From a virus, in IMG/VR virus record IMGVR_UViG_3300037847_005585, positions 852-25,877 of that record: a DNA stretch of 25,026 bases; one strand, written 5' to 3'. The position numbers and the translations under genes were made by a program. The first letter of the stretch is position 1. Each line of letters opens with the position of its first letter. Below are positions 1,463 to 14,535 of the stretch, one piece after another. The notes under the pieces are model-generated. The model made no database searches, had not been told where the DNA came from, and saw only the letters and a program-made list of their open reading frames with translations.

Positions 1463-1753
1463 TCATGCACTGTATGATGCTTTACTATTAATAAGCAGTA
1501 AATTCGCTCTATTAAGCATTATGGCGCTATTGGAGCGCTTGCCGCTTAAATGGTAATTTACAGTGGTATGATCCTTGTAATTTAACAATTTTCCTATTTT
1601 TTGCTGATTAAATCCTAATCTGTACATTAAAATACAGCAAATTTGTCTGGCATCAACCAGATTTTTTTTTCTTCGTTTGCTTAATAAATCATCAACAGAT
1701 ATGTTACATGATTTGCAAACCATTTCTATTATTTGATTACTGTCTTGTGTCAT
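1463..1753 (-). CDS. DnaA domain IV-like DNA-binding protein
   Basis: A 96 aa protein that is essentially the C-terminal DnaA-box-binding domain of the bacterial initiator DnaA, without the AAA+ ATPase. It has the basic lead (KRRKKNLVDARQICCILMYR, residues 26-45), a helix-turn-helix (QQKIGKLL), and the DnaA signature DHTTVNYH (residues 61-68, GRDHTTVLHA in bacteria). The start at 1753 is chosen because GAGGAG lies about 11 bases upstream. A longer upstream frame would run into the peptidase gene. Only 1 base separates it from the peptidase stop at 1755. It could bind DnaA boxes to recruit or block host DnaA, or act as a transcription regulator. Two perfect boxes occur in this window (6772, 11287). 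Confidence 0.8.
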   Translation of the reverse strand: MTQDSNQIIEMVCKSCNISVDDLLSKRRKKNLVDARQICCILMYRLGFNQQKIGKLLNYKDHTTVNYHLSGKRSNSAIMLNRANLLLINSKASYSA

Positions 1754-1754
1754 A

Positions 1755-2171
1755 TTATCTTCTTTCTCCTCTATATTGCCATGTTCCATTTTCGTCTGCT
1801 TCAAATTCATGGTATCGATCACCTTTGTGATCACAATGTATAAATCCTTTGTCAGGGTAGTAACATATACGTTTATATTCAGATGATCTTAGTTCCTCAA
1901 GGAGGAGTTCCATGTTTTCACACGTGTAATCAACTGCCCCAAGGCCACTAAATGTATGCTCACTATCACCGCTCCTACCATGTGAGAGTTCCCAATCTTT
2001 AGATCTATAACCACTATTTTCTGAGACTGATATAGGTTGTTGTATTTTGTGTCTTATTTGATTGATTATAGGTTTATGATATTTCTCTATCTTATCTACT
2101 ACATGTATTGGTACGCTTGACATAACTCTGTCAACAAGAAATTCTTTAATGCTAAAATAATCGAAGTACAT
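1755..2171 (-). CDS. M15-family peptidase, probable endolysin
   Basis: 138 aa zinc peptidase of the D-Ala-D-Ala carboxypeptidase/endopeptidase M15 type, expected to cut peptidoglycan cross-links at lysis. Zinc-site motifs are visible: SEHTFSGLGAVDY (His72, Asp81) and GFIHCDHKG (His112, Asp114), in the order and spacing expected for M15. The His-to-Asp gap in the first motif is two residues longer than the standard S-x-H-x2-G-x-A-x-D. No signal peptide is seen. The N-terminus YFSIKEFL fits a start at 2171. A longer frame up to 2231 would run through the hairpin and promoter region and is less likely. It lies just downstream of the candidate promoter at 2197-2225. Confidence 0.8.
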   Translation of the reverse strand: MYFDYFSIKEFLVDRVMSSVPIHVVDKIEKYHKPIINQIRHKIQQPISVSENSGYRSKDWELSHGRSGDSEHTFSGLGAVDYTCENMELLLEELRSSEYKRICYYPDKGFIHCDHKGDRYHEFEADENGTWQYRGERR

Positions 2172-2196
2172 AATATTATTATTGGTTAAAAAATAT

Positions 2197-2225
2197 AATC
2201 TATGTATTGTTATTTGTTTTTTCAA
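2197..2225 (-). promoter_or_regulatory. Candidate sigma70-like promoter for the lysis cluster
   Basis: On the minus strand TTGAAA (2220-2225) is followed by exactly 17 bases and TAGATT (2197-2202). A start near 2190 would give a leader of about 20 bases before the peptidase ATG at 2171. It sits directly downstream of a terminator, where a new promoter would be needed. The same arrangement (TTGAAG, 17 bases, TAGATT) occurs on the plus strand at 6315-6343. In AT-rich DNA such matches can arise by chance. Confidence 0.4.
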
Positions 2226-2230
2226 TACCA

Positions 2231-2261
2231 AAAGAGGGGAGGCTCGCCAGTTCCCCCCTTT
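2231..2261 (-). other. GC-rich hairpin in the leader region of the lysis cluster
   Basis: AAAGAGGGGA (2231-2240) can pair with TCCCCCCTTT (2252-2261), with one mismatch and an 11-base loop. On the minus strand the stem is followed by TTTTGG, so it may be a weak terminator or attenuator. Between it and the strong terminator at 2287-2318 lies a perfect palindrome, TCAGGA-TAT-TCCTGA (2273-2287). The cluster stands out in an otherwise AT-rich stretch. Confidence 0.5.
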
Positions 2262-2789: not shown

Positions 2790-4025
2790 CTAAAACGGTT
2801 TTTTAGCTACTTCAAGTCCTTTATCTGTAATGTGTTCCAAGTGAATCCTTTGATGGCTTATAATCCCTCTTCTAGATTTTACAATTTTTGCAAATACGCT
2901 ATTATAAGTATACGTATCCATATCACGCCATCCCTTGACCTTTTTAGACACCCCATCAAAAGAGACAAGACTGGGGATCATGCTTGGTCTAAATATTGAG
3001 GTCATACAATGCGCTACATTTTTTATTACTTGCGCCCATTGCGCATCTTTATATCTTGGCTCTAATTGCCACCCATGGCGCACATGGTCGTTAATCGTGA
3101 CTTGGCTAGGAACCAAAAGTAAAACGTTCAATTCTTTTGCGATCTGTTTAAGTATTTTTGTTACATAATTTAGTTCCAAGGTTCTAGAATTGAATCGACC
3201 TTTTGCGTAAACCTCTTGTATGTAATCAATGACAACAAAATCCAAGCCATTTTCTTGCTTTATTTTTCTACAACATCTTTTTATTTCATCTATGTCATCA
3301 ACGCTATCTACGATTAGCATATTATCACAATACTCTAATGTATTAGCCGCTAATTGAGATGCCGTATTCACATCATAATCTTCCATCTGAAACCATAAAC
3401 CCTTATATCCAGCCTCCAACAATTTTACGGATATAAAATTACAAAATTGAGTTTTACCATGTCCAGAGTCTGCTAAAACCACATTTATGTCGCCTTTGTG
3501 CATTCCAACATTTTCATACAAAATATTATCAATTGTATTTATGTTAGTAAGCAGTTTTTCTTTTATTGGGTTCTCTTTTTCCCTGACAAATATTTCTGTT
3601 GGAGTCAGGGCGACAACATCGCTTGCATCGTCAGTCTGTTGTGATAACTTGTCGATCATCAATATTAGATCATCTGCAGTCACATCTTCAGACATAGACT
3701 TTTGGAACACCTCAGACACGGACCTTCTTAGCACCTTTTTATCTCGATCTTCTTTCAGTATATGAAGATAATCTTTGATCTGTGATTCGCTAACCAGAGC
3801 ATTCATCTGTAACTCTAGTAGTCTATCTTGAGTGTATAGATCTAACTTTGATGTTATTGTTGCTTCGTTAAAATTTACACCCTCTGAATGTTGCCTGCAA
3901 CACTCTAAATATAATGTTCTGTTATAATTAAAATAATCTGCATCACTTAGATCGAATATCAGGTTTCTATATTCTCTAGAAAACAGAAGTGTTCCCATTA
4001 AGGAATCTTCAAGTTCTATACTCAT
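2790..4025 (-). CDS. DnaB-type replicative helicase
   Basis: 411 aa RecA-fold helicase expected to unwind the fork as a hexamer. The N-terminal helical domain (residues 1-125) resembles DnaB-N (LEDSLMGTLLFSREY, DYFNYNRTLYLEC). The Walker A loop is ADSGHGKT (185-192), where the first Gly of the standard motif is Ala. The Walker B strand is FVVIDYIQ (263-270), and SQVT (about residues 307-310) may be the sensor region. The typical C-terminal motif before the end is weak, and at 411 aa the protein is slightly shorter than bacterial DnaB. Its start codon overlaps the stop of the winged-helix gene by 4 bases (ATGA), so translation is coupled. The gene sits with the exonuclease and annealing genes in one operon. 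Confidence 0.88.
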   Translation of the reverse strand: MSIELEDSLMGTLLFSREYRNLIFDLSDADYFNYNRTLYLECCRQHSEGVNFNEATITSKLDLYTQDRLLELQMNALVSESQIKDYLHILKEDRDKKVLRRSVSEVFQKSMSEDVTADDLILMIDKLSQQTDDASDVVALTPTEIFVREKENPIKEKLLTNINTIDNILYENVGMHKGDINVVLADSGHGKTQFCNFISVKLLEAGYKGLWFQMEDYDVNTASQLAANTLEYCDNMLIVDSVDDIDEIKRCCRKIKQENGLDFVVIDYIQEVYAKGRFNSRTLELNYVTKILKQIAKELNVLLLVPSQVTINDHVRHGWQLEPRYKDAQWAQVIKNVAHCMTSIFRPSMIPSLVSFDGVSKKVKGWRDMDTYTYNSVFAKIVKSRRGIISHQRIHLEHITDKGLEVAKKPF

Positions 4026-4720: not shown

Positions 4721-5188
4721 CTAAAATGGGGCGCTATCGTATGCTAAGCTATTGTTTTTTGCAGACGATCTTGGATGATTTACATGTCTGTGATCAACAC
4801 TATCAGCATCTTTCGAGTCGTCAAGTAAAAGCAATCCTGCGAGAGCATATTTTCTAGCGTAGCTTGAACATGTTCCAGTTAGTTGCATTAGGTCCATGCC
4901 TTTTTTTGACTCAGGCTCTCTTGCTAAAGCAGAACCTGTGATGACTTGGCCATTCTTTTCGAAAGTAACAATTGATCTGATATAAACCCTGTCACCATGG
5001 GACACGATTTCATCATCTAGTTTTAGAGTTACATCATATTTAGCAAGTAATGGTTTTACTGCCTCAAGAATATCATCTAAGTTTCTATACTCATAATTAG
5101 AAAACTTATTGACTCTATTCTTTGGAACATTCAGTTCATTCTGAATCTTTGTAAGTATTTGTTGTATTGTTTTTGTCGTTTTGCTCAT
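4721..5188 (-). CDS. erf: ERF-family single-strand annealing protein
   Basis: 155 aa recombinase of the ERF family, which anneals complementary single strands during phage recombination and genome end repair. The family hallmarks are visible: an N-terminal helix (TIQQILTKIQNELNVPKNR), then FSNYEYRNLDDILEAVKPLL, the beta-rich middle with VTFEKNGQVITGSALA, and LTGTCSSYARKYALAGLLLL followed by acidic DDSKDAD. It is shorter than P22 Erf (about 200 aa), with a reduced C-terminal domain but the terminal SAPF that is common in SSB-interacting tails. Its start overlaps the exonuclease stop by 4 bases, so both proteins are translated together as an exonuclease-annealase pair. Confidence 0.88.
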   Translation of the reverse strand: MSKTTKTIQQILTKIQNELNVPKNRVNKFSNYEYRNLDDILEAVKPLLAKYDVTLKLDDEIVSHGDRVYIRSIVTFEKNGQVITGSALAREPESKKGMDLMQLTGTCSSYARKYALAGLLLLDDSKDADSVDHRHVNHPRSSAKNNSLAYDSAPF

Positions 5189-6036
5189 AATTCTGTTATT
5201 GTGTTCATGTTTGTAATCCCAGTATTTGCAGTCCTAGGATCTTTTACCCAATCCATGATCTGGATCAGAGTGTTTGTCATGTCATTGCACGCCTTTGAAT
5301 ATGTTTCTTCACTAAGCGTGTATACGGCACTATTATATGGATACTCTTTCTCAATTGCAACAAAATAAAAATCTGTAAAATCAAGACCTAGTACCATGCA
5401 ATAAAATGCTGCTTGTATATCATATCTATATCGAAAAAAATCTGAACGAAAAGATGCTGCACTCGCATCCTTACATGATTTCCAATCAATGATGGCCAAG
5501 GGGTTTTCTTCCTTGACAAACATCTTGTCAGGCCTAACACGAAATTTCAATGGATAAAACTTTCCATATTCAGATCCTTTGAAGAATGAATATTCATCCC
5601 ATATCGCATCATAATCATACATCTTTGGTATAGACTGTACTGCTGGGTTCTTAATGACACTATTATACATGTTTTGGATTTTTTCAACATCATCAAGTGA
5701 CAATATGGTTTGATCAGCCTCAACCGCCTTCTCAAATTCTTTTCTATATGTTTTGTAATCCTTAGTCATGGTTGGTGCGATCAAATCTGGTCTAGCCTCC
5801 ATAATGTCTGCTATAATTTTCGTGTCATCAAAGGTTACAAACCTACTATGGAACTCGGTTCGATCCTCAAAATATGTATGCATAGCATCACCAAAGATTA
5901 AGGCTTGACTTGGCTCTGTTGGCAACAAGGCCCTCGCAATAGAGTGCTTTTGAACATTTTTTACGAAACTAGATGATATATAATCAGTCCCATGTTCGTG
6001 ATATTTTTTATTCGACAAGTTGCTGAATGTTTGCAT
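5185..6036 (-). CDS. RecE-like PD-(D/E)XK exonuclease
   Basis: 283 aa nuclease that resembles the RecE/exonuclease VIII catalytic domain and Cas4-like phage exonucleases. It would resect double-stranded ends to feed the ERF protein. Motifs in order: YISSSFVKNVQKHSIARALL (residues 19-38, S-x-S-L-K like), FGDAMH (48-53), FRVRPDKM (Asp170), AIIDWKS (Asp184-x-Lys186) and YDIQAAFY (Gln208, Tyr212). The start at 6036 has AAGGAG 8 bases upstream. The gene overlaps the preceding gene by 29 bases and its stop overlaps ERF by 4. No ATPase domain is present. The family is clear; the exact specificity (dsDNA 5'-3') is by analogy. Confidence 0.85.
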   Translation of the reverse strand: MQTFSNLSNKKYHEHGTDYISSSFVKNVQKHSIARALLPTEPSQALIFGDAMHTYFEDRTEFHSRFVTFDDTKIIADIMEARPDLIAPTMTKDYKTYRKEFEKAVEADQTILSLDDVEKIQNMYNSVIKNPAVQSIPKMYDYDAIWDEYSFFKGSEYGKFYPLKFRVRPDKMFVKEENPLAIIDWKSCKDASAASFRSDFFRYRYDIQAAFYCMVLGLDFTDFYFVAIEKEYPYNSAVYTLSEETYSKACNDMTNTLIQIMDWVKDPRTANTGITNMNTITEL

Positions 6037-6295
6037 TTGGATACTCCTTTGGAAAGTTTTTTTTGCAAAGTATTGGTTGTTGAAATGATCCTATCATTTT
6101 TTCTATAATAAATATAAGTTCTTCCATATCATCTGACACCATTACCACAGGTGCTTTGTTGTAATCAATTGGTATATCTTGACTGTCATCATAAAAGGTT
6201 TCGTGTACGGAAAAAACTGGCCCTCCATCAATATTTTTTTCTGCGAATAGTCTGAAGTTCCAATGTCCATCATATCTTGGATCGTTTTCTATCAT
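6008..6295 (-). CDS. Small phage protein with WNFR...SVHETFYDD motif
   Basis: 95 aa protein of a small family often seen in phage early regions: HWNFRLFAEK, VFSVHETFYDDSQD, and a C-terminal helix (DDMEELIFIIEKMIG) followed by a basic region. In homologues the core reads YAIHEVYYD. The function is unknown; it may be a small regulator or inhibitor. It is the first gene of the minus-strand cluster. The upstream DNA (6296-6373) faces the divergent gene at 6374 and must hold promoters for both. Its 3' end overlaps the exonuclease start by 29 bases. Confidence 0.6.
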   Translation of the reverse strand: MIENDPRYDGHWNFRLFAEKNIDGGPVFSVHETFYDDSQDIPIDYNKAPVVMVSDDMEELIFIIEKMIGSFQQPILCKKNFPKEYPNANIQQLVE

Positions 6296-6314: not shown

Positions 6315-6343
6315 TTGAAGAATTTGTATTAAATTATTAGATT
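6315..6343 (+). promoter_or_regulatory. Candidate promoter of the plus-strand early genes, with overlapping DnaA-like box
   Basis: TTGAAG (6315-6320), 17 bases, TAGATT (6338-6343) in the divergent gap 6296-6373. A start near 6350 would leave a leader of about 24 bases before the ATG at 6374. ATTTCCACA (6341-6349) differs by one base from the DnaA-box consensus TTWTNCACA and overlaps the -10 element and start point, so a DnaA-type protein bound here could repress this promoter. No equally clear promoter is visible for the minus direction. Confidence 0.42.
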
Positions 6344-6373
6344 TCCACAATACATACAAATAAAATAGATAAC

Positions 6374-6751
6374 ATGATTAAAAAAGGATTTGTACGAGTT
6401 CCGAATACGATTTTCGATGAACACATGAAATTTTTATCTGGCAATGAATTTTTATGTTACATGGCCATCATTCGGAAAACATGGGGTTGGAATAAAAATA
6501 GTGACAAGATAAGTCATAGCCAATTAATTTCCATGACGGGCCTTTCCAATAAAACGATAGTCAAATGTTTACAATCTTTAGTAGACAAGGAATTAATATC
6601 CATGACAAAGCGATTCAAAAGGACGAACCTTATCAAGGTGTTGGAAAAATCTACACAAGAATCTTATGTAAAAACTACACACACAACACTACAATATAAT
6701 AAACAAAAAGACACATCTATTGTGATTGGTGAAGTAGTATATGATGAGTAG
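6374..6751 (+). CDS. Replication protein O-like winged-helix protein
   Basis: 125 aa protein matching the N-terminal origin-binding domain of phage replication protein O (Phage_rep_O): FVRVPNTIFDEHM, FLSGNEFLCYMAIIRKTWGW, then HSQLISMTGLSNKTIVKCLQ (recognition helix) and LVDKELIS. The C-terminal part that in lambda O contacts the helicase loader is missing, and only a low-complexity tail follows (residues 85-125). It probably binds the origin or acts as an early regulator. The DnaA box and hairpin at 6752-6829 lie immediately downstream. It is the first gene of the plus-strand early cluster, divergent from the replication operon. No helicase loader is otherwise seen. Confidence 0.75.
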   Translation: MIKKGFVRVPNTIFDEHMKFLSGNEFLCYMAIIRKTWGWNKNSDKISHSQLISMTGLSNKTIVKCLQSLVDKELISMTKRFKRTNLIKVLEKSTQESYVKTTHTTLQYNKQKDTSIVIGEVVYDE

Positions 6752-6829
6752 AAACTTTTTTTTTGTTTCTTTGTGGATAACTCGTATATTTCCTGTGTAC
6801 AAATAACAATAACAAAACATAGGTACAAC
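6752..6829. other. Candidate replication origin with perfect DnaA box
   Basis: A 78-base gap between the O-like gene and the next gene. It contains an exact DnaA box (TGTGGATAA, 6772-6780, the reverse of TTATCCACA) and a second site with one mismatch (TGTGTACAA, 6794-6802). It also has an inverted repeat AGAAAC/GTTTCT flanking a T tract just after the O-like gene stop, and AT-rich DNA. The phage encodes a DnaA domain IV-like protein and an O-like protein, both expected to bind origins. An in-frame GTG at 6773 could extend the downstream gene into this gap, but the ATG at 6830 is preferred. Confidence 0.4.
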
Positions 6830-7105
6830 ATGATAATCAACAAACAACAAGCTTTTAAGCTAATCAACAAACAAAACAATTCAATATTCAATGTTCGGTT
6901 CATAAAAAAAGATGGGACCGAAAGAAGCATGAATGCTAGAATGAATGTGAAGAAATATTTGAAAGGTGGTTCCATGACTTATGACCCCAAAAAAAATGGA
7001 TCTATAATTGCATTTGACATGAATGCTATGGGGTATAGAACAATCAATACCCATACATTGACAAATTTGAATGTAAACGGTAACAAATACATTGTGAGAG
7101 GTTAA
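6830..7105 (+). CDS. SH3 beta-barrel-like small phage protein
   Basis: 91 aa protein. The segment FNVRFIKKDGTERSMNARMN followed by a Lys/Gly-rich loop and IIAFDMNAMGYRTINTHTL and a closing strand (NLNVNGNKYIVRG) fits the family annotated in phages as SH3 beta-barrel fold-containing protein (V-x-F-x-K-x-D-G-T-x-R at the start, VYD...G-x-R near the end). The function is unknown; nucleic acid binding is plausible for this fold. The start at ATG 6830 gives MIINKQQAFKL. The frame extends further up to a GTG at 6773 through the DnaA box, which is less likely. Confidence 0.65.
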   Translation: MIINKQQAFKLINKQNNSIFNVRFIKKDGTERSMNARMNVKKYLKGGSMTYDPKKNGSIIAFDMNAMGYRTINTHTLTNLNVNGNKYIVRG

Positions 7106-8892: not shown

Positions 8893-9120
8893 ATGTATAC
8901 TGAAGATGATAATACTTGTATAAATTGCTTTGATAATAAAGCTATACAAATCTCTAAATATGATATTATATGGAGAGATGATAAAAAAGTTCCATGCTGT
9001 CCTAGATGTTGGAATGAATTATATCCTAGATATTTAGCTGTAACTTGGTTTGATATCAAAGATGAAAATATTATCGATTCTGATAATGAAAAATACGATG
9101 AATTAATAAATGAGGAATAA
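8893..9120 (+). CDS. Zinc-ribbon-like small protein (75 aa)
   Basis: 75 aa protein with two Cys pairs: CINC near the N-terminus and CCPRC in the middle (C-x2-C ... C-C-x2-C), which would form a zinc ribbon of about 30 residues. An acidic C-terminus follows. The ATG at 8893 is chosen because the frame upstream overlaps the small membrane gene; the longer frame from 8851 is less likely. The role is unknown; nucleic acid binding is typical for such ribbons. It belongs to a block of genes of unusually low GC content. Confidence 0.6.
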   Translation: MYTEDDNTCINCFDNKAIQISKYDIIWRDDKKVPCCPRCWNELYPRYLAVTWFDIKDENIIDSDNEKYDELINEE

Positions 9121-9121
9121 C

Positions 9122-9889
9122 ATGATGAAACATTATAAAAACTTACAATATTGTGATGAAAAAGACATTGAATCTAATCTTAGATTTGTATGTAGCTACT
9201 TAAATGATGATTATATTAGACGTGGAATTGATTGGTATCCTGATGCCAAAAAACAATTATTAGAATATAAATTAGAACACGATTCTAAATTAGATTATAT
9301 AATGATTGCTCAAATGACTTCTGTATTTTCATCACGTTCAAAATGGAATGTAAATTTACATGAAATTGAAAATGTATTATCACATGTAAAACATCATGGT
9401 TCTAATCTTGAAACTAATAATATGCTTAATAATAGAGTTTATTCTACTAAGGATTTCTATAAAAAAGCATGGAAAAGTTTTAATAATGAACTTGTTTTTT
9501 TCTTTGATAAACAAACTAGAAAAACATGTAAAAAAACAGGTAGTTTTTTCTACAATCTTTTATTAGATAATTCTTTTGTAACTTTAGATGTACATATGAG
9601 TAAATGTATAGCTAGAAATCATAATGAATGGTTTGCTTTATTATTAGATGAAGGTATTGCTTCAAAAAATATTTATACTAGTATTGAAAATCTAGTACTA
9701 AAAATAGCTGAAGAATATAATTTAAAAGGTTATGAATTACAGGCTTCATTATGGCTTGTAATTCAGGATTTATATGATGTTATAAAACCTAATATAAAAC
9801 CAATTAAAGTTAATCACTATTATTCACCACAAAAAAAGATGAATAAATCACAAATTTCTAACTCTAAAAATAACTACAATTATGTATAG
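9122..9889 (+). CDS. Helix-rich protein resembling phage HhH-GPD-like (DUF7178-type) proteins
   Basis: 255 aa. Recognisable elements are a GIDWYPDAKKQLLEYK segment, MIAQMTSVFSSRSKWNVNLHEI, KKTGSFFYNLLLDNSFVTLDVHMSK, and a C-terminal YELQASLWLVIQDLYDVIK. This order (WYP...A; alpha-rich with SxxxxW; TxDVH; LQAxxWL) matches a phage family that I associate with DUF7178 and with endonuclease III/glycosylase-like helical folds. That suggests action on DNA bases, which is unproven. The start at 9122 has AGGA about 6 bases upstream, and a frame from 9110 is longer but overlaps the previous gene. The third codon positions are almost all A or T, unlike the head genes. Confidence 0.5.
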   Translation: MMKHYKNLQYCDEKDIESNLRFVCSYLNDDYIRRGIDWYPDAKKQLLEYKLEHDSKLDYIMIAQMTSVFSSRSKWNVNLHEIENVLSHVKHHGSNLETNNMLNNRVYSTKDFYKKAWKSFNNELVFFFDKQTRKTCKKTGSFFYNLLLDNSFVTLDVHMSKCIARNHNEWFALLLDEGIASKNIYTSIENLVLKIAEEYNLKGYELQASLWLVIQDLYDVIKPNIKPIKVNHYYSPQKKMNKSQISNSKNNYNYV

Positions 9890-11057: not shown

Positions 11058-11604
11058 TTATTCTGATAAAGAGAAACTAGATGTTTTAAGGGATCTAGAT
11101 AAATATGGAAACTTGTCAAAAGTGTCAACAAAATATGGCCTTTCTAGACAGACAATATACAACTGGAAAGATTCTGCAAAACAGTTACAAGAACAGGTTA
11201 TTGAGTTAGATAAAGTAACAAAAAAGAAAAGACATGATCTATTAGATAAAGAAGTTTTAAAAAACATTGGAACATATAAGAACCTTTTATCCACAATAGG
11301 GGATTTAGAAAAGAGAAAAGAGAATCTGTCTGCTAAGGTTGAGTTACTGTTAATGAATGTAGTTGATGCTATAGAAAAACACGAAGATCTAAAAGAGATA
11401 CATCCAAAGGACTTGAGTAAGATGATGAAGGACCTTCATGATGTTCGCAAAGAACTAAGCAATGAGCCAACCATTATTATTGAATATAAAAACAAAATGA
11501 GGGAACAGACCTTACAGGTTCTTCAGGACTTTTTAAATATAGAGCAGCTAAAAGAGTTCGCTCAAAAAATGGAGGCAATAGAAGCTGAGTATGAGTTACT
11601 ATAG
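11035..11604 (+). CDS. terS: Probable small terminase subunit
   Basis: 189 aa protein, ATG at 11035 preferred over 11026. It has an N-terminal helix-turn-helix (YSDKEKLDVLRDLDKYGNLS, then KYGLSRQTIYNWK, residues about 6-44). This is followed by long predicted coiled-coil helices (LQEQVIELDKVTKKK, LSTIGDLEKRKENLSAKVEL) and a C-terminal acidic region. DNA-binding N-terminus plus oligomerising helical middle, placed just before the large terminase, is the layout of TerS, which recognises the packaging site. A perfect DnaA box (TTATCCACA, 11287-11295) lies inside the gene. A transposase-like regulator is the alternative reading. It overlaps the next gene by 14 bases. Confidence 0.65.
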   Translation: MKKKRASDYSDKEKLDVLRDLDKYGNLSKVSTKYGLSRQTIYNWKDSAKQLQEQVIELDKVTKKKRHDLLDKEVLKNIGTYKNLLSTIGDLEKRKENLSAKVELLLMNVVDAIEKHEDLKEIHPKDLSKMMKDLHDVRKELSNEPTIIIEYKNKMREQTLQVLQDFLNIEQLKEFAQKMEAIEAEYELL

Positions 11605-13370: not shown

Positions 13371-14152
13371 GAGAGGCTGATAGGGTATGGGAGATACCAT
13401 TATGGGAGACTAACCACAGTAAACAACGACTGCTCCAAGAGGAAGCGATGGACTTTCTATCGTATAAGCTTGGATATGAAATGAGTGAGGAAACAGATGA
13501 TCCTACGAAGAAGGCATACAAACATTTTGATGGATATAATCACTACCCTGACGGCAATCTTACATCTATTGATTACGATAATGGCAGTTCTGTTTGGCTT
13601 TGCGCTGATTTCAACAGGTCTCCTCATTGTTGGGCTTTGCTCCAAGTTAAAAAGGCTCGTAATGGGCTTAGGCAGTACATTGTTTTTGACGAAATCTTCT
13701 CCAAAGAAGCCCTCACCACCGAACAAGCCCTCAAAGCTGTTGAATTACTGAAAAAATGGGATATTTCAAAAGTTTTATTGGCTGGAGACAACACTTCTAA
13801 CCAAAAAAGTGGTAATTATGGTCGTGTAGGCAAAAATGACTGGGATTATGTTAGGGAAGTGCTTAGTCAACACGACATTTCATATAAAAATGAGTTAGAT
13901 ATACAAAATCCTAAAAGAAAAGTGCGTGTAGACAGGGTTAATAACGCAATTTATGCTGGAAAAAATGGAGAAAGACGACTTTTAGTAAATACTAGATGCG
14001 ACCATGTTATAAAAGACTATATGTACTCCATTGTTAATGATAAAGGTGTAAAAATAGACAATGGTGATCGTGGACACATGTCTGATGCAATAGATTATGC
14101 TATTTGGAGGAATGAAAAGGGGTCATCAAGTCCAATGTACGTGCTACGCTAG
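13367..14152 (+). CDS. terL: Large terminase, nuclease domain (separate gene)
   Basis: 261 aa protein that is the C-terminal RNase H-like nuclease half of the large terminase, which cuts the concatemer. It begins within the usual linker after ATPase motifs (IPLWETNHSKQRLL, typical of terminases). Predicted catalytic acids are Asp81 (WLCADFNRSP), Asp141 (LLAGDNTSN) and Asp240/243 (GHMSDAIDYAIW). It starts with ATGA overlap on the resolvase-like gene. Its stop overlaps that of the convergent gene on the other strand by a few bases. Since the ATPase is a separate chain, the motor and nuclease would have to meet as separate subunits. Confidence 0.82.
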   Translation: MREADRVWEIPLWETNHSKQRLLQEEAMDFLSYKLGYEMSEETDDPTKKAYKHFDGYNHYPDGNLTSIDYDNGSSVWLCADFNRSPHCWALLQVKKARNGLRQYIVFDEIFSKEALTTEQALKAVELLKKWDISKVLLAGDNTSNQKSGNYGRVGKNDWDYVREVLSQHDISYKNELDIQNPKRKVRVDRVNNAIYAGKNGERRLLVNTRCDHVIKDYMYSIVNDKGVKIDNGDRGHMSDAIDYAIWRNEKGSSSPMYVLR

Positions 14153-14535
14153 TCTCTTCTGATAGGTTTAGTGCGTTTACCCATTCCTACACGTTTTTTC
14201 TCTCTAATAGCCTCAGATGCTTTGCCTTTTGCTTTTAGTTCCTTCCACGTAACAGGTGTTTCCTTGCTTATTCGAACAGTAGGACGACATTTTTTAATTC
14301 CTTTAAACTTCTTTGACCCACAAGGTGAGCCATCTTGAGTAGTCCATTTTTCTCGCATCCATCGAGCAACACCTCTTTTGGTCGACTTTCTTCCTGTATA
14401 TGTTCCCCCTCTTTTTTTATATTCCTTTACGATCCAAGCTGATGCGTATGCACTAGGGAATATTTTAAACTTGCGCTTAGCCTCTGATTTTACTCGGCTA
14501 TATAAAGATGGATTAGCTGGTTCGTTTTTTGACAT
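14149..14535 (-). CDS. DUF5872-like basic protein
   Basis: 128 aa, very basic. It matches the DUF5872 pattern: NPSLYSRVKSEAKRKFKIFP, SAYASAWIVKEYKKRGGTY, ARWMREKWTTQDGSPCGSKK, CRPTVRISKETPVTWKELK. Homologues that I recall come from algal (Phycodnaviridae-type) viruses and marine phages; the function is unknown, and a DNA-binding or virion role would fit the charge. It is the only minus-strand gene in the packaging and head region. Its start faces the gene at 14622, and the palindrome at 14567-14589 lies between them. Confidence 0.75.
   Translation of the reverse strand: MSKNEPANPSLYSRVKSEAKRKFKIFPSAYASAWIVKEYKKRGGTYTGRKSTKRGVARWMREKWTTQDGSPCGSKKFKGIKKCRPTVRISKETPVTWKELKAKGKASEAIREKKRVGMGKRTKPIRRD

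Follow-up and report, generated by a model that had tools for sequence, protein, structure and literature searches.

The window, by which we mean the whole stretch of viral DNA analysed here, covers 25026 of the 25877 bases of its record. A leftward operon on its minus strand begins with a small gene (6008-6295) and continues through genes for an exonuclease VIII-like DUF3799 protein (5185-6036) and an ERF annealing protein (4721-5188), two small genes, a DnaB-like replicative helicase (2790..4025), a 109-aa gene and a peptidase M15-type endolysin (1755..2231). Immediately behind the endolysin gene, as the last gene of the operon, lies the subject of this study, a stand-alone DnaA domain IV gene (Bac_DnaA_C; 1463..1753, minus strand) whose 96-aa product is here called P0001. 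On the plus strand are genes for an O-like replication initiation protein, represented by its N-terminal domain only (6374..6751), and for a 91-aa protein with a WYL_2 domain (6830..7105). Between the 109-aa gene and the endolysin gene, positions 2225-2290 of the minus strand form a strong hairpin with a T-run (-27.3 kcal/mol, z -4.15), which resembles the terminators that precede the domain-IV gene in relatives and is possibly a displaced terminator element. Elsewhere in the window, unassigned genes match DUF7936 (556-849), DUF7178 (9110-9889) and DUF5872 (14149-14535), the last of them on the minus strand among plus-strand structural genes.

P0001 is a member of the DnaA domain IV family and not a DnaA. 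Residues 6-68 match Pfam Bac_DnaA_C (PF08299; E 1.4e-18, 67.1 bits against a cut-off of 31.5), the whole frame comprises 97 codons directly after the endolysin gene with no AAA+ domain, and the NCBIfam models of full-length DnaA reach 52.5 bits against a cut-off of 343.9; among PHROGs only an unnamed family was matched. An AlphaFold2 model (pLDDT 92.2, alignment of 32) found as its best PDB match by Foldseek 1j1v, domain IV of E. coli DnaA in complex with a DnaA box (TM 0.78, rmsd 2.5, E 1.7e-3); the top ten matches were all DnaA, none of them at E 1e-3 or lower. Residues are numbered below as in E. coli DnaA, and the base-contact positions are taken to be those of the 1J1V structure. Among 44 distinct relatives, R399 and H434 are kept in 44, T436 and Q408 in 43, D433 in 40 and T435 in 39. 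P0001 itself has R399, H434 and T435, carrying KDHTT together with the minor-groove arginine; relatives outside the window's own group share only about 24-42% identity with it and yet keep the contact residues. The R399A and T435M changes are reported, in passages of PMC5742627, to leave E. coli DnaA defective in box binding. K415 is replaced by Y in P0001, and L422/P423 are not conserved in the family; the corresponding Leu423/Pro424 make contact with Hda, according to a passage of the same source. Most relatives also have a conserved C-terminal tail (about NMEEFLEMVQ), absent from P0001 and the window's group, which could be a partner-binding part. The preliminary description, which had read the gene as a DnaA domain IV without its ATPase and with a DHTTV signature, is thus borne out by domain, size and model, as are the contact residues on which it had proposed that its reading be judged.

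The window holds two perfect copies of the box TTATCCACA, at 6772-6780 (minus strand) and 11287-11295 (plus strand), and a one-mismatch copy, ATTTCCACA, at 6341-6349, all three just where the preliminary description had put them. Taken within the window alone, box counts are at chance and were not used as evidence: TTATNCACA occurs twice where 2.10 copies are expected, and TTWTNCACA, one mismatch being allowed, 71 times where 88 are. The ATTTCCACA copy overlies the -10/start of the promoter-like site of the O-like gene (6315..6349, plus strand; TTGAAG at 6315-6320, a 17-base spacer and TAGATT at 6338-6343), the promoter overlap that had been proposed for it, and the site is conserved: the four members of the window's group all have ATTTCCACA there, and L010-L014 have TTTTCCACA in that position. 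In E. coli, TTTTCCACA is the mioC/R5 box, as given in a passage of PMC5835720. The perfect box at 6772-6780, which reads TGTGGATAA on the plus strand, sits in the spacer of a promoter-like site ahead of the WYL_2 gene (6763..6790, plus strand; TTGTTT at 6763-6768, a 16-base spacer and TATATT at 6785-6790). That promoter scores 4.9, below the random mean of 5.6, so the case for the site rests on conservation: L007-L014 retain the box, the T-tract ahead of it and the stretch after it. The perfect copy at 11287..11295 lies inside the small terminase gene and was rejected as part of the system; an exact TTATCCACA occurs within that gene in only the window (WIN), L008 and L009 of 67 loci, and it looks like chance.

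These 67 loci, which belong to a single clade of uncultured phages, comprise the window and 66 loci from 65 records found by searching IMG/VR with the helicase. A Bac_DnaA_C gene is present in 51/65 of the records (39/50 and 12/15). At the level of loci the gene is found in 51/67, in every case after the endolysin gene in the replication operon. Among the 16/67 loci lacking it, several stop within about 1.5 kb past the endolysin gene, and the records of two (L034 and L070) carry the gene outside the locus; L065 has none over 3.9 kb beyond the endolysin gene. The loci are largely near-copies of one another (51 of them form 18 clusters at 75% core identity), and counts within the clade are therefore not independent events. 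No relatives of the helicase were found in genome_contigs, and named phages yielded only distant helicases, at under 60% identity, so that the named-phage collection seems to include no sequenced isolate of the clade; a search with the portal protein gave no match. Phage_integrase, whose presence would fit an immunity repressor of a temperate phage, was found in 0/24 records, which may be fragments. Two gut contigs deposited as phage, unannotated, have Bac_DnaA_C frames of whole-DnaA size (L005, MT835860.1, 463 aa; L006, MT835965.1, 414 aa); they are probably bacterial sequence and were dropped from clade counts.

Boxes are abundant in these relatives, the absence of which the preliminary description would have counted against itself. 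With expected counts from first-order Markov models, one for every locus or region, the 67 loci contained 82 copies of TTATCCACA against 8.8 expected, 104 of TTATNCACA against 45.4 and 131 of TTWTNCACA against 99.2. Thirteen long records had 21 matches, against 5 for a backward control, and exactly two in 9/13. The boxes occupy two fixed places, one in the O-like/early divergent region and the other between the endolysin and domain-IV genes. At the first, a box is present in 31/40 loci with at least 1 kb of the region (2.16 expected in total). Four of the misses have short coverage of 1.0-1.4 kb (L022, L026, L035 and L041); in L042, L057, L064 and L070 the box is absent, and L061 has only TTATTCACA. 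At the second, a TTATNCACA box lies upstream of the domain-IV gene in 43/47 loci, the exceptions being L044, L048, L057 and L072. In the four loci of the window's group, no intergenic region separates the two genes. In the window no box lies upstream of the gene, which follows the endolysin gene directly, and none occurs within one mismatch in the gap before the endolysin gene; the window's lineage thus lacks the autoregulatory site proposed below, with only the early-region boxes left.

Within both regions most of the boxes fall on predicted core promoters. Promoters were taken as consensus matches to an approximate matrix for E. coli sigma70. Upstream of the domain-IV gene, the best promoter, picked blind to boxes, overlapped a TTATNCACA box in 33/47 loci (chance about 0.09 per box); in nine further loci the box lies on a lower-scoring promoter, TTGACT-17-TAGATT, and in L032 it lies more than 900 bases upstream of the gene. 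Promoter scores at 57/81 boxes exceeded the 95th percentile of 3000 random positions. At most sites the box lies just past the -10, in either orientation, or between the -35 and the -10: counted from where the -10 begins, 40 of the 81 start at +5, with TGTGGATAA in 24 of these and TTATCCACA in the other 16, and 13 start at -12, that is, in the spacer. Turnover of these sites could be followed on one promoter: the box lies in the spacer in L010 and L012 and at the start site in L011, L013 and L014, L058 has TTATGCACA, L064 has TTATTCACA, and L057 and L072 have degenerate sequences.

The combination of promoter and box is largely peculiar to the clade. Across IMG/VR, TTGACW-N17-TAGATTGTGGATAA was found in 30 stretches (28 from the clade), TTGACW-N17-TAGATTTATCCACA in 20 (16 from the clade) and TTGACW-N5-TGTGGATAA-N3-TAKANT in 19 (18 from the clade), so that 62/69 stretches belong to the clade as judged by contig name or gene content; the composite pattern with permuted box letters gave 0 matches. 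The seven unrelated stretches (L179, L184, L188, L192, L195, L199 and L208) have no Bac_DnaA_C gene in their records, and such operators can therefore exist without a phage-encoded reader. Four of them, with GC of about 0.40 and none of the clade's genes, repeat the clade's layout, in which a promoter has TTATCCACA at its start site and a terminator follows at once (L188, 7069-7105; L192, 12896-12932; L195, 10280-10316; L199, 2454-2490). L179 (at 9155) and L184 (at 5228) are unrelated viral contigs with GC of about 0.54 and the composite on core promoters; if these boxes are read by anything, the reader would be host DnaA.

In many relatives, L015 (5780-5875) and L025 (7860-7960) among them, the domain-IV gene is preceded by a strong terminator hairpin, which comes within about 60 bases after the boxed promoter. 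Such a unit should yield a very short RNA, or else the hairpin should act as an attenuator. A small-RNA reading was considered, and Rfam gave no match to the promoter-terminator units of L010, L015 and L025. With a terminator between gene and boxed promoter, the gene may be transcribed mainly from elsewhere.

Variation in the protein runs partly parallel to variation in the boxes. Where D433 is changed to N or S the early-region box is lost in 3/3 loci, compared with 1/25 where D is kept (Fisher p 0.0012, uncorrected for kinship), and the joint change is seen in two lineages of the helicase tree, L061/L064 and L057. A further D433 variant, L048, has no coverage of the early region; the box upstream of its gene departs by one mismatch. 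Two loci fit this pattern poorly: L061, itself a D433 variant, keeps a perfect box upstream of its own gene, and L020 retains perfect boxes, having lost both T435 and T436 (DHAI). L065, which combines a missing gene with a one-mismatch box, had been taken as a case of joint loss; this was dropped and not counted, because L044 and L048 carry the gene and show the mismatch at the same position.

The domain, its contact residues, the enrichment of boxes, their fixed placement on predicted promoters and the lack of boxes near the terminase start are computed features of these sequences. From them we infer DNA binding, repression and an effect on timing by P0001. We read the protein as a DnaA domain IV turned small transcription repressor, acting on operators that are most likely readable by the host as well, and hold this reading with somewhat more belief than doubt. 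P0001 would bind single TTATCCACA boxes on the sigma70-type core promoters of early genes. Its predicted targets lie in the O-like/early divergent region, to which most relatives add the domain-IV gene's own promoter. Bound at the -10/start or between the -35 and the -10, it would exclude RNA polymerase; as it accumulated, its own transcription and that of other early genes would be shut off, providing an early-to-late brake with negative autoregulation. Binding is predicted to be strongest at TTATCCACA and weaker at TTTTCCACA, ATTTCCACA and TTATCTACA.

Geometry speaks for this. Activators usually bind upstream of the -35. Sites at the start or in the spacer, one to a promoter and tolerant of orientation, fit steric repression, and since they lie on early promoters and on the gene's own, transcriptional repression, including autorepression, is indicated as the primary role. 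Judged from sequence, the arrangement would be that of repressor operators with negative autoregulation and neither that of an origin nor that of activator sites. The phage protein is favoured as the reader because the region of its own promoter is boxed, its contact residues are kept and the change at D433 tracks the loss of the early-region box. Our confidence goes no higher because L061, L020, the identity of the box with that of the host and the seven unrelated stretches all count against it.

That identity bears on who else may read the boxes. Host DnaA recognises the same word, and the operators are therefore probably shared, read by both the phage protein and host DnaA. It is conceivable, as a tentative extension, that viral domain IV and host DnaA compete for the boxes, so that early timing would be tied to the level of host DnaA and the replication state of the host, with the phage-made reader resetting the coupling. 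A different division of labour would make the boxes operators for host DnaA by which the phage senses the state of replication, the domain-IV protein being an antagonist that competes there or acts elsewhere. Passages of PMC5835720 and PMC8203912 describe TTATCCACA as a high-affinity DnaA box and as the one present in the dnaA promoter of E. coli, which is autorepressed, a passage of the latter source reports that host DnaA acts at ori-lambda, and the seven unrelated composites have no Bac_DnaA_C gene in their records. However, the domain-IV gene is itself boxed in 43/47 loci, box loss accompanies the change at D433, and a competitor occupying the same core-promoter site would block the promoter as well. 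We regard this second arrangement as unlikely.

Less probable still, as a main role, is the blocking or redirecting of host DnaA that the preliminary description had suggested, with P0001 occupying oriC and other chromosomal boxes and turning host replication off. A box-binding domain lacking the ATPase and with conserved contact residues should compete with DnaA, and the gene sits in a replication operon. However, this would leave unexplained why single boxes have a fixed place on core promoters of the phage itself, and the failure to keep L422/P423 says nothing for a role in targeting DnaA. As a side effect of repression, or as a second role, redirecting or blocking host DnaA is possible.

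We give little credence to the boxes as marks of a phage replication origin, where host DnaA or the phage protein would help opening together with the O-like protein. One class of box does adjoin the O-like gene, and lambda-type origins are influenced by DnaA-dependent transcription according to a passage of PMC8203912; but the boxes are single and unclustered, the second class lies kilobases off beside the endolysin gene, and their placement is fixed relative to the -35 and -10 with inversion tolerated, which makes the origin reading weaker than repression. In L028, the one relative examined for them, three iteron-like repeats of 19 bases (5931-5994, 24 and 21 apart) make a candidate origin; they lie within the O-like gene and at a distance from the box, which is at 5587.

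NF004686 (PRK06030), which we take to be the model of the GafY/HdaB family, did not match P0001, and among four domain-IV proteins only that of L071 was matched, weakly (E 0.062, 13.2 bits against 148). No sigma-like neighbour that might serve as a GafZ-type partner appeared among the Pfam and PHROG matches of the window's leftward genes. Precedent for a GafY-like late activator, recruiting RNA polymerase to structural genes as in gene transfer agents, comes from passages of PMC9632790, PMC11150451, PMC9638019 and PMC6363796, in which GafY and GafA, the latter through its N-terminal part, are activators with a DnaA domain IV-like fold acting on late clusters of phage-like type. Such a role seems very improbable here, given that the 600 bases upstream of the small terminase gene contain a box in 0/27 loci (sites other than DnaA boxes being possible), that GafA is described as having E and S in place of R399 and T435 where most members of the phage family keep both residues, and that P0001 is missed by the family model.

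Repression by P0001 would have its closest counterpart in E. coli DnaA at dnaA, which passages of PMC8203912 and PMC5835720 describe as using the same DNA-binding domain on a TTATCCACA box in repression of its own promoter; the phage protein differs in having no AAA+ part, nucleotide switch or oligomerisation part, in being phage-encoded, and in having one box on each of several phage promoters. Caulobacter GafY/HdaB and the N-terminal domain of Rhodobacter GafA are alike in being stand-alone (or fused) domain IV-like regulators of phage-type clusters; according to a passage of PMC9632790, GafY/HdaB was initially put forward as a replication protein and later recognised as acting in transcription. 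They differ as activators upstream of a late cluster, with contacts to IHF, sigma or omega and a GafZ partner, GafY binding upstream of the -35 as described in passages of PMC9632790, PMC11150451, PMC9638019 and PMC6363796. GafA, as described there, is also without the minor-groove arginine, whereas the phage clade has canonical DnaA boxes on early core promoters. C-terminal Bac_DnaA_C-like domains have likewise been reused outside replication in the Y1/TnpA-REP superfamily of transposases, where, according to a passage of PMC6006769, the domain is fused to a HuH nuclease and the repeats are unlike DnaA boxes.

Other phages also encode domain IV with no complete DnaA. Such proteins (L150-L164, frames of 120-239 aa) come from diverse viral contigs with GC from 0.29 to 0.71, a widespread kind. 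Of 15 such records searched, which include one further Bac_DnaA_C carrier, L149, outside that series, 13 have no TTATCCACA, and no promoter-box arrangement was seen; for this reason the link between protein and operator is, as far as seen, special to the clade. In the open-access literature no earlier account was found that pairs a DnaA domain IV from a phage with operators made of DnaA boxes, subscription papers being mostly outside that search.

Proteins consisting of DnaA domain IV alone turn up in scattered phages and have no assigned role. In this clade operators accompany the protein, so that two reporter promoters together with a single purified protein would be enough to test its role. 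If the reading as a repressor is right, the D433 variants, box variants and inverted boxes would offer natural pairs of protein and operator for studying DnaA-box recognition. It would also mean that a virus has adopted, for an operator of its own, the DNA word read by the replication initiator of bacteria, and would provide, beside GafY, a second case in which DnaA domain IV has moved from replication to phage-type gene control.
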